Shown here piece by piece: positions 3,274-20,400 of a DNA stretch of 28,887 nt; position 1 is the stretch's first letter; each line of letters starts with the position of its first letter. The stretch spans positions 1 through 28,887 of the IMG/VR virus record IMGVR_UViG_3300032288_002427; one strand, 5' to 3'. The DNA is from a virus. The translations under genes and the position numbers were made by a program. Under the pieces are notes generated by a model, which saw nothing but the letters and a program-made list of their open reading frames with translations, did not search any database and had not been told where the DNA came from.

Positions 3274-3320
3274 CTTTACAATCGCTTGCCCATTGACTTT
3301 CGCTTGCAATCCGGTAGCCT
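3274..3320 (+). promoter_or_regulatory. Promoter for the first early regulator, with inverted TTGTAAAG box
   Basis: TTGACT at 3293-3298, a 16-nt spacer and TAGCCT at 3315-3320 make a sigma70-like promoter. Upstream, CTTTACAA at 3274-3281 is the reverse complement of the TTGTAAAG box found before most early operons. CTTGC at 3285 and CTTGCAA at 3303 are further copies in inverted orientation. The first gene downstream (3370) encodes a winged-helix protein, so autoregulation is possible. Confidence 0.55.
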
Positions 3321-6727: not shown

Positions 6728-6792
6728 TTGTAAAGACTGTCACCGTACCCCTTGCATTACAAGACCAGCGAGGTAATCTGAACTTGTAAGCA
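6728..6792 (+). promoter_or_regulatory. Early promoter of the shared TTGTAAAG family
   Basis: TTGTAAAG 6728-6735, 16 nt, -35 TTGCAT 6752-6757, 16 nt, -10 TAATCT 6774-6779, and TTGTAAGCA 6784-6792. It serves the genes at 6812 and 6972. Confidence 0.75.
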
Positions 6793-10848: not shown

Positions 10849-11058
10849 ATGCTCACGCCTGTGTATCAGGCAGGCGCAAGGATCAGGGAACTCCGACGCG
10901 GTAGGAAAATGAGCCGCGCCGAGTTGGCGGTCGCAGCAGGAGTCAGCATCACGACCATCAACCGGATTGAGCAAGGCACCCGCGTCGGGCTTCCTTCCCT
11001 TGCAGCGATCCTGTCGATACTTGACCCGGAGGCACGCCTGAGCGACTACGCAGAGTGA
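10849..11058 (+). CDS. XRE-family helix-turn-helix protein
   Basis: A 69-residue protein, essentially one Cro/CI-type domain: GARIRELRRGRKMSRAELAVAAGVSITTINRIEQGTR, then a LPSLAAILSIL helix. The recognition helix is SITTINRIEQ. It is a stand-alone repressor or activator and a second candidate for a factor acting on the early promoters. It overlaps the resolvase gene by 4 nt. Confidence 0.85.
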   Translation: MLTPVYQAGARIRELRRGRKMSRAELAVAAGVSITTINRIEQGTRVGLPSLAAILSILDPEARLSDYAE

Positions 11059-11474
11059 TCTGCGAGCGGGATACGCACTCGTTCATCCTGCGCCTGCCGG
11101 TAACCCCGGTGGGGCAGGAGCGTGCCCGTCACTCTCGGAACGGCCACACATACACTCCGGCCAAGACCCGGCAAGCGACTAATGAGATTCGTGAACTCTG
11201 GTCGCTTGCCGGGAAGCCGGTCGTTGAAGGCGAGTGGTTTTCGATCAGCATCCTCGCGCAGATCCCCAAGCCGAGGACGTCGAAACTTGCCTACCCTGCT
11301 CGCCCGGACGTCGACAACATCGCCAAGTTGGTGCTGGACGCGTTGCAGGGCTATGCCTTCCAGAATGACTCTCGCTGCTGCTCGCTGTCGGTGAGCAAGG
11401 AGTGGGGAGGCCCGTTGCTCGTCGCCAGAATAAAGTGGGGGCAGCCCGTCACCACAGCGGACTGCCCCCGGTAA
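11055..11474 (+). CDS. rusA: RusA-like Holliday junction resolvase
   Basis: A 139-residue protein from GTG 11055. It carries the RusA signature PDVDNIAKLVLDALQGYAFQNDSR, with acidic residues Asp85, Asp87, Asp95 and Asp105 and Lys91 in the expected order. RusA enzymes are homodimers that cut four-way DNA junctions and branched replication products. The N-terminal RLPVTPVGQERARHSRNGH strand region also fits. It ends the recombination operon. Confidence 0.85.
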   Translation: MICERDTHSFILRLPVTPVGQERARHSRNGHTYTPAKTRQATNEIRELWSLAGKPVVEGEWFSISILAQIPKPRTSKLAYPARPDVDNIAKLVLDALQGYAFQNDSRCCSLSVSKEWGGPLLVARIKWGQPVTTADCPR

Positions 11475-11701: not shown

Positions 11702-12220
11702 ATGATTACTGAGAATGATGTGTCGCTGCTCGTTGATCGCATCGCTGGTATGTGGCCGGTGATGAAGAACAACGAGGAGCAAAAGCGAGCGATTGCCATG
11801 CTCATCATGGAACGCGGATCCCGGCTGAATGTTGAGGATCTGAACGAGGGCTACCGGCTGCTCGTCCTCAACGGAAAGACCTCGCGCCCAGACGGAGGCC
11901 CGGCGTTCCCGCCAGCGCCCGGTGAGATCCTCGGCTGCATCCTTGCCTCGGCATCAGCGCGGCGCACGACGCCCCGCGACGGCTCCCCGCGTAAGGTGGC
12001 TGGGAGGGTATGCCGCAAGTGCGGCTCCGCCGTCCACTACCTTCCCGGCGAGGAAACCATCCACTGCGGCTCCTGCAACACGGTGCAGATGATCGCTGGC
12101 AAGACGCAACTTTCGCCGCACGACGTTCACTCGCTGCGGCTGGAGGATCCTGACTCCTACAGCGACGAGGAAGTCGAAGCGGCGAAGCGCCGATTCAAGA
12201 TCGCAATGGGGGGGATGTGA
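11702..12220 (+). CDS. Zinc-ribbon protein with helicase-loader-like N-terminus
   Basis: A 172-residue protein with start CAGAGAGAGACAATG. Residues 1-85 are helical and end in PAFPPAPGEILG, reminiscent of the FPP segment in SPP1 G39P-type helicase-loader/inhibitor proteins. Residues 102-123 hold CRKCG and CGSC, a zinc ribbon. A replication role is inferred from the N-terminal resemblance only; no helicase gene is in the window. It overlaps the next gene by 4 nt. Confidence 0.75.
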   Translation: MITENDVSLLVDRIAGMWPVMKNNEEQKRAIAMLIMERGSRLNVEDLNEGYRLLVLNGKTSRPDGGPAFPPAPGEILGCILASASARRTTPRDGSPRKVAGRVCRKCGSAVHYLPGEETIHCGSCNTVQMIAGKTQLSPHDVHSLRLEDPDSYSDEEVEAAKRRFKIAMGGM

Positions 12221-12564
12221 CCAGCGAGGATTACGCCCGGCTGTGCTTGCGCCGACTGCGCGGCTCGCTTGACGGCGAAGGCGACGAGAAGTATGCCGAC
12301 CCCGGCTACAACCGACTGAGCGTGATGCTGATCACCCGCATCATGGGAGCAGGCGCTGACGAGTACGAGGTCGACGCCGACACTCAGTTGGTGGAGGTCA
12401 AGCCTCTCCTAGACCTGATCCGCGACATGGAGGAGGAGGTGACTGACCTCGTTGCCTACGCCGCCGTCTTTGCGGAGAGGACGCATGTTGAGATGCGCCC
12501 GCTAGTATCAACGGCCATCAAGATGATGACCATGATTCAGCAGATCAAGGACGAGTTTGAGTGA
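12217..12564 (+). CDS. Helical protein of unknown function
   Basis: A 115-residue protein from GTG 12217 (overlapping ATGTGA). It has acidic and hydrophobic helices (YNRLSVMLITRIMGAG, VKPLLDLIRDMEEEVTDLVAYAAVFAER) and a Met-rich end (AIKMMTMIQQIKDEFE). No domain is recognised. It is translationally coupled on both sides. Confidence 0.72.
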   Translation: MTSEDYARLCLRRLRGSLDGEGDEKYADPGYNRLSVMLITRIMGAGADEYEVDADTQLVEVKPLLDLIRDMEEEVTDLVAYAAVFAERTHVEMRPLVSTAIKMMTMIQQIKDEFE

Positions 12565-12851
12565 GGCGAGACTGGAAGCAGGCTAGGGCCAAGGTCGACT
12601 CGGAGGGGGAGTGCCGAGTCTGCGAGAACGGTCAAGACCTGCAAGCCGCCCACACCATCGGGCGCAAGCACGATCCGCCTACCGGGAAAGTGCGCCCTCT
12701 TGACATCGTGCCGTTGTGCGTGAAATGCCACATGGAATACGATGGCCGCAGGCTCAACCTGCTGCCCTACCTGACCGTTGAGGAACAGGCCGCTGCCGTA
12801 GAGCATGTCGGAATCATCAGCGCACTCAGGAGGCTCACGAATGAGCGATAA
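12561..12851 (+). CDS. HNH-like zinc protein
   Basis: A 96-residue protein from GTG 12561. CRVCENGQDLQAAHTIGRKHD followed by DIVPLCVKCHMEYDGRRLNLL is a small HNH layout: CxxC, AH, then LCxxCH. The usual Asn before the last zinc pair is Asp, so nuclease activity is uncertain. Such free-standing HNH proteins in phages act as homing, packaging-associated or recombination nucleases; position gives no decision here. Confidence 0.75.
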   Translation: MRRDWKQARAKVDSEGECRVCENGQDLQAAHTIGRKHDPPTGKVRPLDIVPLCVKCHMEYDGRRLNLLPYLTVEEQAAAVEHVGIISALRRLTNER

Positions 12852-13083
12852 GCCCGCCCTCGTCAAGGAGGGGGAACGCCTGCGAGACCTCTACCAAGGC
12901 GGCAAGGAATCCGACACGGTCGAAGCCGCCTTGTCGTGCTACTACGGCATCAGCGAGATTGTCCGTCAGGCCGAGGACGAGAAGGACGGCAGGATCCTCA
13001 CGTTCGCCGCTCCGCAGATCAGCGACCTTGCTGTTCGACTTGGCTGGCTGCAGGCCGACAAGAACGCTAAACCCAAATTGTAA
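12841..13083 (+). CDS. Small helical protein
   Basis: An 80-residue protein from ATG 12841 with CAGGAGG upstream, overlapping the HNH-like gene by 11 nt. It is a charged helical protein (VKEGERLRDLYQGGKESDTVEAAL) with no recognised domain. Its last codons (TTG TAA) form the TTGTAAAG box of the next promoter. Confidence 0.7.
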   Translation: MSDKPALVKEGERLRDLYQGGKESDTVEAALSCYYGISEIVRQAEDEKDGRILTFAAPQISDLAVRLGWLQADKNAKPKL

Positions 13084-13142
13084 AGATGAATCAGTATCGC
13101 TTGCATTCCAGTTTCTTTGATGGGATGCTGTGAGGGTAAGCA
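13078..13142 (+). promoter_or_regulatory. Shared-family promoter for the first structured RNA
   Basis: TTGTAAAG 13078-13085, 15 nt, -35 TTGCAT 13101-13106, 17 nt, -10 GATGCT 13124-13129, GGTAAGCA 13135-13142. No credible start codon with a ribosome site follows. Confidence 0.65.
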
Positions 13143-13446
13143 AAGCAACGGGGACTTGGAACCGCTCTGGTTTGCTTACTAAGCGCACGGGGATTCCCTG
13201 CAAGGGTCCACCGGTTCATGCAACCGCTCCGCCGAGAGCGGCATGGGTGAAACACCCCAGCATGGCCAATGCTTGGAGGCGGCATGCGTCCTAGGTGGCT
13301 GCCCGTGGCTGATGCTTACAGGGGTATGACCCGCAAGGGTTCCTCGCCCAGCGTTCGGAGCAAGTACGGGAACGCACGGAGGCACCGGAGAACCGGACAC
13401 GCTTATCGGATTGCGTGGACACGGGGCCGGTGCCTCGGCCATTCTA
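13136..13446 (+). ncRNA. Candidate structured non-coding RNA A
   Basis: Starting 7 nt after the -10, GTAAGCAAA (13136-13144) pairs with TTTGCTTAC (13171-13179) and encloses the module AACGGGGACTTGGAACCGC. More pairings follow: CCGCTC/GAGCGG (13224/13236), GGGTG-AAA-CACCC (13245-13257), and a 10-bp closing helix GAGGCACCGG/CCGGTGCCTC (13379-13388 / 13437-13446) with an inner CACGC/GCGTG hairpin. No frame here has a ribosome site or protein-like composition. The 3' end is a guess. Confidence 0.6.
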
Positions 13447-13458
13447 GAATCTGGGAAA

Positions 13459-13523
13459 TTGTAAAGATGACCGGATTGGACTTGCATCCTGTTTGGTCGC
13501 ATGGCAATCTACTTATTGCAAGG
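13459..13523 (+). promoter_or_regulatory. Shared-family promoter for the second structured RNA
   Basis: TTGTAAAG 13459-13466, 15 nt, -35 TTGCAT 13482-13487, 17 nt, -10 CAATCT 13505-13510, ATTGCAAGG 13515-13523. Again no translation start follows. Confidence 0.65.
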
Positions 13524-14056
13524 AAGGAACGGGGAGTTGGAACCGCCAAGCCTTCCGAGCAGGAGCCGGTAAACCTTCTTTGCTCAAGGTGCGCCCTAGT
13601 AAGAGTCAGGCCGGTTCTAGCAGGGGGGCCACGTCAAACCCGCCTGCAGGAAGGGCCAGCGCCCTCCAACCGCCCGACTCCAACGAGCCGCAAGGGCGGG
13701 GCCGAGAGGCGACCGGGGTAACCATGCCCGGTCTGGCGCTGACCCTCCGGCCTCGGATGCCTGACGGCTGACGGGTGCATGCAAGTCTCTTAATCCGCAA
13801 AGGTTGGCCACACAAAGTACGTCCGGCAGATCAGCCACATGGACCGAAACGCTACGAGCCGTAATCCCACCGCCGAGCGATGCATCGACCGTCAGGCTCC
13901 CGAGGAACACCGGCAGCCGCTGGAACCACCCTTGGCCTGTCCCTCCAGACGCCGCGTGCGTACTGCGAAACGTGAGTGCGAAAGGGCCAGCGGCAGCCGG
14001 TACTAACACGAATGAAAGAAAGCTGGGCAGCGGGTCGGGGCCAACTCCCCGGCCCG
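13517..14056 (+). ncRNA. Candidate structured non-coding RNA B (about 540 nt)
   Basis: GGAAGG (13522-13527) and CCTTCC (13551-13556) close a hairpin around AACGGGGAGTTGGAACCGC, the same module as in RNA A on a differently sequenced stem. Further helices: CCGCCC/GGGCGG (13670/13694), GACCGGG/CCCGGTC (13711-13717 / 13727-13733) and a 14-bp helix with one mismatch between 13910-13923 and 13987-14000. It ends in a terminator-like hairpin. Size and density of pairing recall the large phage-associated RNA classes ROOL and GOLLD; membership is not shown. Confidence 0.62.
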
Positions 14057-14065
14057 TTTGCATTT
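14031..14065 (+). terminator. Rho-independent terminator of RNA B
   Basis: CGGGTCGGGG (14031-14040) pairs with CCCCGGCCCG (14047-14056), with one G-T pair and a 6-nt loop, followed by TTTGCATTT. It separates the RNA unit from the next promoter. Confidence 0.78.
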
Positions 14066-14128
14066 GTAAAGATGCTCGCTCTCCACTTGCAATCTAGTTT
14101 GTGGACGCTAATGTAGTCCATGTAAGCA
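14064..14128 (+). promoter_or_regulatory. Early promoter of the shared TTGTAAAG family
   Basis: TTGTAAAG 14064-14071, 15 nt, -35 TTGCAA 14087-14092, 16 nt, -10 TAATGT 14109-14114, ATGTAAGCA 14120-14128. It drives the genes at 14148 and 14357. Confidence 0.78.
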
Positions 14129-14147: not shown

Positions 14148-14330
14148 ATGACCTACGAAGAGATCCTCATCGAAGCAGCAGCCGTAAACAAGGCTTGCAA
14201 GATCAGGGACCACGAGGGAATGATCCGCCGCTTTGGACTTACGCAGATCATCAACGCGCTTCCCGAGGAGCAGCGGATTGAAGCCCACAAGACCTTGAAC
14301 CGTCGCGGCCCCGGCCTCTTTGAGAAGTAA
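14148..14330 (+). CDS. Small helical protein
   Basis: A 60-residue protein with start AAGGAGAGAGACAATG. Three short helices (YEEILIEAAAVNKACKI, EGMIRRFGLTQIINAL, EEQRIEAHKTLNRR) make up the protein. No family is recognised. Confidence 0.72.
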   Translation: MTYEEILIEAAAVNKACKIRDHEGMIRRFGLTQIINALPEEQRIEAHKTLNRRGPGLFEK

Positions 14331-17353: not shown

Positions 17354-18538
17354 ATGCGGATTGCAACCCAGAAGTACGTTGAGAAGGAGATCGCAAAGCT
17401 GACTCCGCACCCACGCAATCCGCGTGAGGGCGACGTCGGTTCCATCCATGAGTCGATTGAGGTCAACGGCTTCTACGGAGCGATCATCGTTCAGAAGTCG
17501 ACGGGCTACGTTCTTGCCGGTAACCACCGCTTGCAGGCTGCCGCCTTGGCGGGCGGGACCAAGGTGCCGGTGCTTGAGGTCGACTGCGATGACGTCACGG
17601 CGGAAAAGATCCTGCTTGCCGACAACCGCACCAGCGATATCGCCACGAACAAGAACGACATCCTTGTGGAAATCCTGAAGGAGTTGGCGGAGGGGCCGGG
17701 CCTTGAGGGCACCGGCTTTGACGGCGATGACCTTGATGAACTTTTGACCGACCTCGGTGAAGCGCCAAAGCCCGAGGCCGACAGCGATCCGATGGAGCCG
17801 CCCAAGGATCCGAAGTCCAAGCCGGGCGAGGTCTATGAGTTGGGTCCGCACCGACTCATTTGCGGAGACTCAACGGGCGAGGCAATCGCAACCCTGATGG
17901 GCGACGACCGCGCAAACTGCGTCTGGACAGATCCGCCCTACGGAGTGGCATACGTTGGCAAGACCAAGGACGCGCTGACGATTGAGAACGACAACCTCAA
18001 GCCGGAAGTGCTGGAACAACTGCTGCGCGACTCGCTGGGCATGGCCTTCACCTACACCGAGGCCGGTGGAACGTGGTACGTCGCATCACCGGCTGGCGAC
18101 CTGTTCCACACCTTCGGAACCGTGCTGCACGAGTTGGGCGTATGGAGGCACACCCTGATCTGGGTCAAGGACGTCATGGTCATGGGCCGAGCTGACTACC
18201 ACTACAAGCATGAGCCGATTTTCTACGGCTGGAAAGAAGGCGCTGCTCACAGTTGGTACGCCGACCGAAAGCAGACGACCATCCTTGAGTTTGACCGGCC
18301 CAAGCGCAGCGAGCAGCACCCGACCATGAAGCCACTGGAGTTGGTCGAATACTGCCTCCGCAACAGCACGCAGCGCGGCGACATTGTCCTTGACCCGTTT
18401 GGAGGATCCGGCTCTACGCTCATGGCTGCCGACCGGATCGGACGCGAGGCGCGGCTTGTGGAGTTGGACCCCGGCTACTGCGATGTGATCCGCACGCGCT
18501 ACGCCGAGCATGCAAACCGTCCAGACCTTATGCCGTAG
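17354..18538 (+). CDS. ParB-domain / DNA methyltransferase fusion
   Basis: A 394-residue protein. Residues 1-125 form a ParB/sulfiredoxin-like domain (LTPHPRNPR, then GYVLAGNHRLQAA). A linker rich in Pro, Glu and Asp (136-160) joins a beta-class amino-methyltransferase with motif IV DPPY at 193-196 and the SAM-binding LDPFGGSGST at 346-355. It should methylate adenine N6 or cytosine N4 at a specific site; with no restriction partner visible, protection of phage DNA is the likely purpose. ParB-methyltransferase fusions are known in phages and mobile elements. Confidence 0.88.
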   Translation: MRIATQKYVEKEIAKLTPHPRNPREGDVGSIHESIEVNGFYGAIIVQKSTGYVLAGNHRLQAAALAGGTKVPVLEVDCDDVTAEKILLADNRTSDIATNKNDILVEILKELAEGPGLEGTGFDGDDLDELLTDLGEAPKPEADSDPMEPPKDPKSKPGEVYELGPHRLICGDSTGEAIATLMGDDRANCVWTDPPYGVAYVGKTKDALTIENDNLKPEVLEQLLRDSLGMAFTYTEAGGTWYVASPAGDLFHTFGTVLHELGVWRHTLIWVKDVMVMGRADYHYKHEPIFYGWKEGAAHSWYADRKQTTILEFDRPKRSEQHPTMKPLELVEYCLRNSTQRGDIVLDPFGGSGSTLMAADRIGREARLVELDPGYCDVIRTRYAEHANRPDLMP

Positions 18539-20061: not shown

Positions 20062-20148
20062 GACTTTGCAGACTTTTCTCGCAGACTCTGCAGACTTCGC
20101 GCAGAGACTTTGGAGACTTTGTAAAGAGACTTTGCAGACATGGCCTTT
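20061..20148 (+). repeat. Four tandem 22-bp repeats
   Basis: AGAC occurs at 20061, 20070, 20083, 20092, 20105, 20114, 20127 and 20136: spacing 9, 13, 9, 13, 9, 13, 9. Each 22-bp unit reads roughly AGACTYTGCAGACTT plus a variable end; the third unit ends TTTGTAAAG. The period of two helical turns would place bound proteins on one face. Confidence 0.9.
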
Positions 20149-20400
20149 ACAATTAGGGAAGTCTGCGGAGTCTGTGTCGCAAGATGCCCTCATGTCTCAT
20201 GCTTGATGGCCGAATGTGTGCTGACTTTGTGCTCATGTCTACAATCTTAAGAGACTGCACACAGAGATTTGCAACATCTCCACACAGACTCTCCATGTCT
20301 GCACACAGACTCTCCCGCAGACTCGGTGAGACGTTTACAAATGTCTGCGGAGATTCGCGGAGACGTTTACAAAGTGTCTCGCCATGTCTCCGCATGTCTC
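20149..20400. repeat. Field of AGAC/GTCT boxes and TTTACAAA palindromes
   Basis: Downstream of the tandem array the same boxes continue on both strands. An inverted copy of the unit lies at 20160-20174 and GTCT/AGAC boxes are dense. CACACAGACTCTCC occurs twice 21 bp apart (20281, 20302). GAGACGTTTACAAA occurs twice 32 bp apart (20328, 20360), each followed by GTCT to form an imperfect palindrome centred on TTTACAAA. The frames here give no credible protein. A short hydrophobic frame begins at 20414. Confidence 0.8.

Follow-up and report, generated by a model that had tools for sequence, protein, structure and literature searches.

What does a phage transcribe from a stretch of its genome that holds no protein gene? 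This question is raised by a virus known only from environmental DNA, whose 28,887-nt record (GC 0.61), analyzed here in full as the window, carries terminase, portal, P22-like coat, RusA and HNH genes. Two gene-free transcription units separate a small gene that ends at 13083 from the next, which begins at 14148. We find that the second of these units, RNA B, appears to be a free-standing non-coding RNA gene on the plus strand (13517-14060, ~545 nt), encoding a large structured RNA recognized by its fold energy, covariation, covariance model and relatives. The preliminary description had set its boundaries at 13517-14056, within a few bases of the refined span (predicted start ~13517, end ~14057-14062).

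Promoters, terminator and coding potential

Both units are preceded by a copy of one promoter layout, in which TTGTAAAG is followed by 14 nt, CTTGCAT and, ~17 nt further, a -10 box; other copies in the window stand in front of small protein genes that have a ribosome-binding site. Seven strict copies were found in the window, against none expected. The RNA B promoter (13459-13510, +) comprises the TTGTAAAG box (13459-13466), a -35 box TTGCAT (13482-13487) and, after a 17-nt spacer, the -10 box CAATCT (13505-13510). The promoter of the upstream unit, RNA A (13078-13129, +), has its TTGTAAAG box at 13078, TTGCAT at 13101 and the -10 box GATGCT at 13124-13129. In RNA A, RNA B and both relatives of RNA B described below, the predicted start is the first base pair of the 5' hairpin, whose first base lies 7 nt past the -10 box in the three RNA B copies and 6 nt past it in RNA A. 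At its other end, RNA B finishes in an intrinsic terminator (14031-14061, +) with the 10-bp stem described earlier (14031-14040 with 14047-14056), the loop CCAACU (14041-14046) and a T-rich tail, GUUUGCAUUUG; this terminator is also present in the two relatives. Directly 3' of it, in all three phages, stands the promoter of the next gene (in the window, promoter 14064-14115 and gene 14148-14330, +). This layout of promoter and terminator supports the reading of RNA B as a discrete predicted transcript, and RNA A plus B, which span ~920 nt together, are two transcription units with separate promoters rather than one RNA.

Further copies of the repeated promoter lie at 6728, 7689, 9139, 15408, 23830 and 24440 (+) and at 3281 (-), where the minus-strand copy fits only partly. 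In front of small genes the repeated layout reads TTGTAAAG, 13-15 nt, CTTGCAT, ~28 nt, TGTAAGC, and judging by their letters the boxes resemble operator half-sites (CTTKCA, both orientations), perhaps for one phage regulator.

RNA A (13135-13447, +) is a paralogue of RNA B in its 5' hairpin, sharing only this hairpin and its loop motif, and has an otherwise different body; its 3' end is uncertain and shows no clear T-run terminator. It was not seen in either relative and is so far confined to the window.

Coding frames conserved in relatives would speak against such RNAs, as the preliminary description noted; we looked for them and found none among the ORFs of at least 45 codons compared across the four RNAs, the best matches (window and L014) jumping frame. 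ORFs are present mechanically in RNA B, for example at 13617-14063 (-, 148 aa), and none in the region had a PHROG match, in agreement with the gene-free interval described before. Codon-position GC was flat over 13269-13721 (0.61/0.61/0.62), compared with 0.63/0.47/0.77 in the protein gene at 11702-12220.

Fold of RNA B and its relatives

The fold of RNA B (13515-14062) had an energy of -251.3 kcal/mol, against -223.4 +/- 6.7 in dinucleotide shuffles (z -4.14; 0 of 100). As an equal-length coding stretch of the same phage reached z -2.36 and RNA A z -1.83, energy alone is weak evidence for a structured RNA; relatives were therefore compared, and the proof rests on comparative evidence.

Two syntenic loci of ~490 nt each were found in IMG/VR: L008, on a 29,729-nt contig, by the promoter pattern, and L014, on a 16,242-nt contig, by the 17-nt 5' motif. 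Window, L008 and L014 share the order HNH gene, small gene, RNA, promoter, small genes, and the HNH proteins of the two relatives are 68-79% identical to that of the window. The L014 RNA B (489 nt) folded with z -3.91 and that of L008 (491 nt) with z -2.56. RNA B is thus known from three loci, with RNA A as a partial paralogue, all from assembled environmental contigs.

We predicted a fold from the window RNA by itself, in its terminator state, and mapped it onto a MAFFT alignment with L014 built from sequence only; 90.1% of 293 cells were paired, a percentage biased upward because the structure derives from one of the two sequences compared. Such bias does not explain the pairs changed on both sides, which numbered 17 against 8.6 +/- 2.1 expected, a count reached by 0 of 500 shuffles and falling to 1-3 when the partner was slid. 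Missing covariation had been named beforehand as grounds for giving up a structured RNA; the covariation found is significant, and together with the fold energy it bears out the proposal of a highly structured RNA of ~540 nt. In the 5' domain, 97.1% was paired, with five double changes. An anchored-window helix test gave a Fisher value of 2.5e-6 for L014, where two overlapping windows entered the count twice, and a modest 0.014 for L008. The MAFFT comparison of window RNA B with L008 was not significant because the middle is unalignable by sequence, and the whole-alignment test was weak when started from the L014 or L008 fold. For L014 and L008, minimum-free-energy folds of the single sequences deviate partly from the shared structure and were therefore not trusted.

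At the level of single helices, all on the plus strand, the 5' hairpin H1 (13517-13561; 13517-13519 and 13522-13527 with 13559-13561 and 13551-13556) shows two double changes in L014, is kept in L008 and is rebuilt with other bases in RNA A; shuffles of the flanks gave 0.1-0.9%. H3 (13562-13618; 13562-13570 with 13610-13618) keeps 9 of 9 pairs in L014, two of them changed on both sides, four on one side and none broken, and has a counterpart in L008, GGGTCAAGG/CCTTGACCT. All eight pairs of H4 (13620-13647; 13620-13628 with 13639-13647) are kept in L014, one of them changed on both sides, and H5 (13649-13748; 13649-13663 with 13735-13748) has three pairs changed on both sides, two on one side and two broken. 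H6 (13751-13905; 13751-13767 with 13889-13905) is largely unchanged (12 of 15 pairs, with one changed on one side, one on both and one broken) and encloses H7 (13774-13780 with 13880-13886; one pair changed on both sides) and H8 (13850-13862 with 13869-13879; five pairs changed on both sides, three broken). The helix of 14 bp with one mismatch that had been reported as the strongest is present as H9 (13909-14001), one base wider on each side than claimed, with 13909-13923 and 13987-14001 forming 14 pairs around an A.A mismatch. At its position L014 (1987-2002/2027-2043) and L008 (11145-11159/11231-11244) have a helix of unrelated sequence, and since the sequence alignment does not reach H9, its conservation is positional evidence only. 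Conservation is poor in the inner branches of H5 and in parts of the region of H8. Together, these comparisons support a predicted structure in which RNA B is an array of about eight conserved helices.

A covariance model built from the first 155 nt of the window and L014 RNAs detected L008 at 59 bits (E 7.4e-13), with the match carrying its own versions of H1, H3 and H4. It also matched RNA A (13134-13219) at 18.3 bits (E 0.011; E 2.2e-5 over 501 nt), and no other locus searched, some of them chosen for the motif, exceeded 17 bits. In whole-record searches, L008 and L014 gave one copy each.

Other searches for the RNAs were broader. None of the 50,697 phage records had DNA similarity to any of the three RNAs, and a first scan for the 5' motif with AACGGGG gave no matches. 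The relaxed 17-nt motif gave six loci, including L008 and L014; the other four, without promoter or hairpin context, were attributed to chance. The same motif occurred at 39 loci in 84,980 genomes, and none of the 38 with inspected flanks (all except L064) had the promoter-plus-hairpin arrangement, so they were treated as chance. Beyond the two relatives, a wider promoter scan returned only chance loci of lower GC. None of nine further loci with HNH homologues carried the RNA motif, and no TerL relative (L002-L007) matched the model, these being short contigs that may not cover the region.

Complementarity between the 5' loop and the terminator

The loop of H1 holds an invariant motif, CGGGGAGUUGGAACCGC (13530-13546, +), and this motif, CGGGGASUUGGAACCGC, is the same in every copy of RNA B, with a single change in RNA A. 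Positions 13531-13540 of the motif are complementary to the terminator, where the partner strand of the putative helix H2, CCAACUCCCC (14041-14050, +), is their exact complement. In all three copies of RNA B, the loop's GGGGAGUUGG (GGGAGUUGGA in L008) finds an exact 10-nt complement at the same place in the terminator, which 4-6 of 2000 shuffles per copy also yielded. With the terminator closed, its loop CCAACU could still kiss AGUUGG over 6-7 bp, and with the terminator open a 10-bp clamp would form; RNAfold placed the clamp below hairpin plus terminator by 8.2 kcal/mol in the window, 3.8 in L014 and 1.4 in L008. The pairing has no covariation support because both sides are invariant. In RNA A, no complement of the loop exceeds 6 nt; its loop has ACUUG and a late hairpin (13351-13375) has CAAGU, which would be a compensated version, and this 5-nt match is likely due to chance. 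Given the exact and repeated complementarity, we consider that the 5'-3' contact of RNA B, as kissing loops or as a clamp, is probably real. Separately, the terminator of the next protein gene in L014 (2385-2420), GGGGGC-CAACGU-GCCCCC, has a loop that resembles the RNA B terminator loop.

Class membership and possible mode of action

To our knowledge, few RNAs this large have been described from phages; ROOL and GOLLD are the best studied, and both are without an assigned function. They often neighbour tRNA genes. ROOL is a phage-encoded large structured RNA without protein, with many helices and loop-loop contacts (659 nt in env-120), and GOLLD is likewise phage-encoded, large and structured, many examples having at least 800 nt and a universally conserved 3' region (PMC12286853). 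RNA B resembles ROOL in being phage-encoded, large, structured, rich in helices and protein-free, with a candidate loop-loop contact, and shares the first three traits with GOLLD. Unlike either, it has no Rfam match and no tRNA neighbours; it is ~490-548 nt long, shorter than the ROOL example and much shorter than many GOLLD RNAs, has no demonstrated homology to ROOL in sequence or helix plan, and is most conserved in the 5' hairpin and terminator rather than in a 3' region.

The search of Rfam 15 that the preliminary description had proposed, which included ROOL, GOLLD and OLE, gave no match at gathering score in the window, L008 or L014, and at E up to 5 the three members returned only unrelated chance matches. 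Intron and ribozyme models of Rfam did not match, and ARAGORN found no tRNA genes in the window, L008, L014, L035 or L003. No described class that matches was found in a literature search covering few subscription papers. ROOL/GOLLD membership therefore fails, as both the Rfam test and the tRNA neighbours are negative, and the resemblance in kind stands; of the earlier reading, the large phage RNA with a terminator and the alternative of a new class hold, and membership does not. RNA B thus very probably founds a new class of structured non-coding RNA. That it is instead a member of ROOL or GOLLD too divergent for the Rfam models would fit its phage context, size class, intricate fold and possible kissing loops (PMC12286853), but the absence of any match up to E 5 in three members, of a tRNA island and of any demonstrated common helix plan had already disfavored this, and we regard it as scarcely credible.

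As a whole, the reading that we favor, with some reserve, is that RNA B represents a new class of large structured phage non-coding RNA that acts in trans and is akin to ROOL and GOLLD without belonging to them. RNA B appears to be laid out as its own unit, with the same phage promoter as the genes around it, a predicted start at the 5' hairpin and an intrinsic terminator, and a single phage regulator would control it together with its neighbours. Once the transcript is released, its 5' loop may pair with the terminator loop through a 6-7 bp kissing contact, extended to as many as 10 bp when the terminator opens, which would close RNA B or join copies. The stable RNA could then serve as a trans-acting scaffold or sequestering particle, by analogy with proposals for ROOL and GOLLD. 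On this analogy, a trans-acting structural RNA seems somewhat more plausible than not, and a cis-regulatory leader less so; since all three phages have a separate promoter immediately after the terminator, a free-standing RNA is likely and a leader unlikely.

Such a leader would be an attenuator, in which the 5' motif and the upstream terminator arm compete for CCAACUCCCC, so that an unpaired 5' motif prevents termination and allows read-through to 14148. The two mutually exclusive states, with similar computed energies in the relatives, and the exact and conserved 10-nt complement fit this scheme. The downstream gene's own promoter, present in all three phages, speaks against it, as does the ~450-nt body between motif and terminator, a distance unusually long for an attenuator; we consider it improbable. 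Only a slim chance attaches to a base-pairing regulatory or decoy RNA, in which exposed stretches of RNA A and RNA B would pair with early-mRNA leaders or ribosome-binding sites, or a loop would capture a host RNA-binding factor. By inspection, mRNA leaders GUAAGCAAAC at ~6786 and ~15466 have their complement in the 3' strand of the hairpin of RNA A (GUUUGCUUAC), but this arises because RNA A shares the same leader, the complementary stretches are buried in stable hairpins, and in RNA B the corresponding sequence varies from one relative to another. In parABS mycobacteriophages, non-coding RNAs serve as origins: a transcribed non-coding region, from which 400-497 bp were deleted in Alma and LadyBird, is required for prophage replication, and its RNA lies immediately upstream of parA, running the other way (PMC7157519). 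An RNA-based replication element of this kind would match RNA B in being a transcribed non-coding phage region of a few hundred bases, with actinobacteriophages as the possible setting, in similar size and in adjoining DNA-metabolism genes (RusA-like, 11055-11474; HNH, 12561-12851; a PD-(D/E)XK nuclease in L014). It is nonetheless improbable, as the orientation differs, the phage collection held nothing similar at the DNA level, and no parAB cassette was recognized among the window proteins scanned (a subset of ORFs, on a contig that may be incomplete), parA being absent from them and the ParB-like domain at 17354 being fused to a DNA methyltransferase.

Returning to the trans-acting structural RNA, assembly of RNA B into an RNA-only multimer is doubtful, with the complementary 5' loop and terminator loop as a candidate intermolecular contact. 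A fuller version, drawn by analogy, is unlikely: an unrelated further class of protein-free self-assembling phage RNA, in which the 5' loop would kiss the terminator loop of the next copy to give closed multimers like those of ROOL and GOLLD, RNA A perhaps serving as another type of subunit. If RNA B is an unrelated class in another phage lineage, large protein-free RNAs would have evolved more than once in phages. With its compact form and conserved 5'-3' loop complementarity, it offers a new, shorter system for testing multimer formation and function.

The phage itself has no close relative in the phage collection (best TerL 39% identity, best coat 56%), and that several related genes occur mostly in actinobacteriophages is only a hint to the host. 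The ParB-like domain lies at 17354-18538, where the fusion partner is an N6/N4 DNA methyltransferase; at the corresponding place L008 (13607-14203) and L014 (4756-5331) have, by inspection, a ParB-like protein without the methyltransferase part. At 20090-20200, shortly before the terminase gene (20479), AGACTTTGCAGACTT-like repeats cluster on both strands and are perhaps a packaging or regulatory site.
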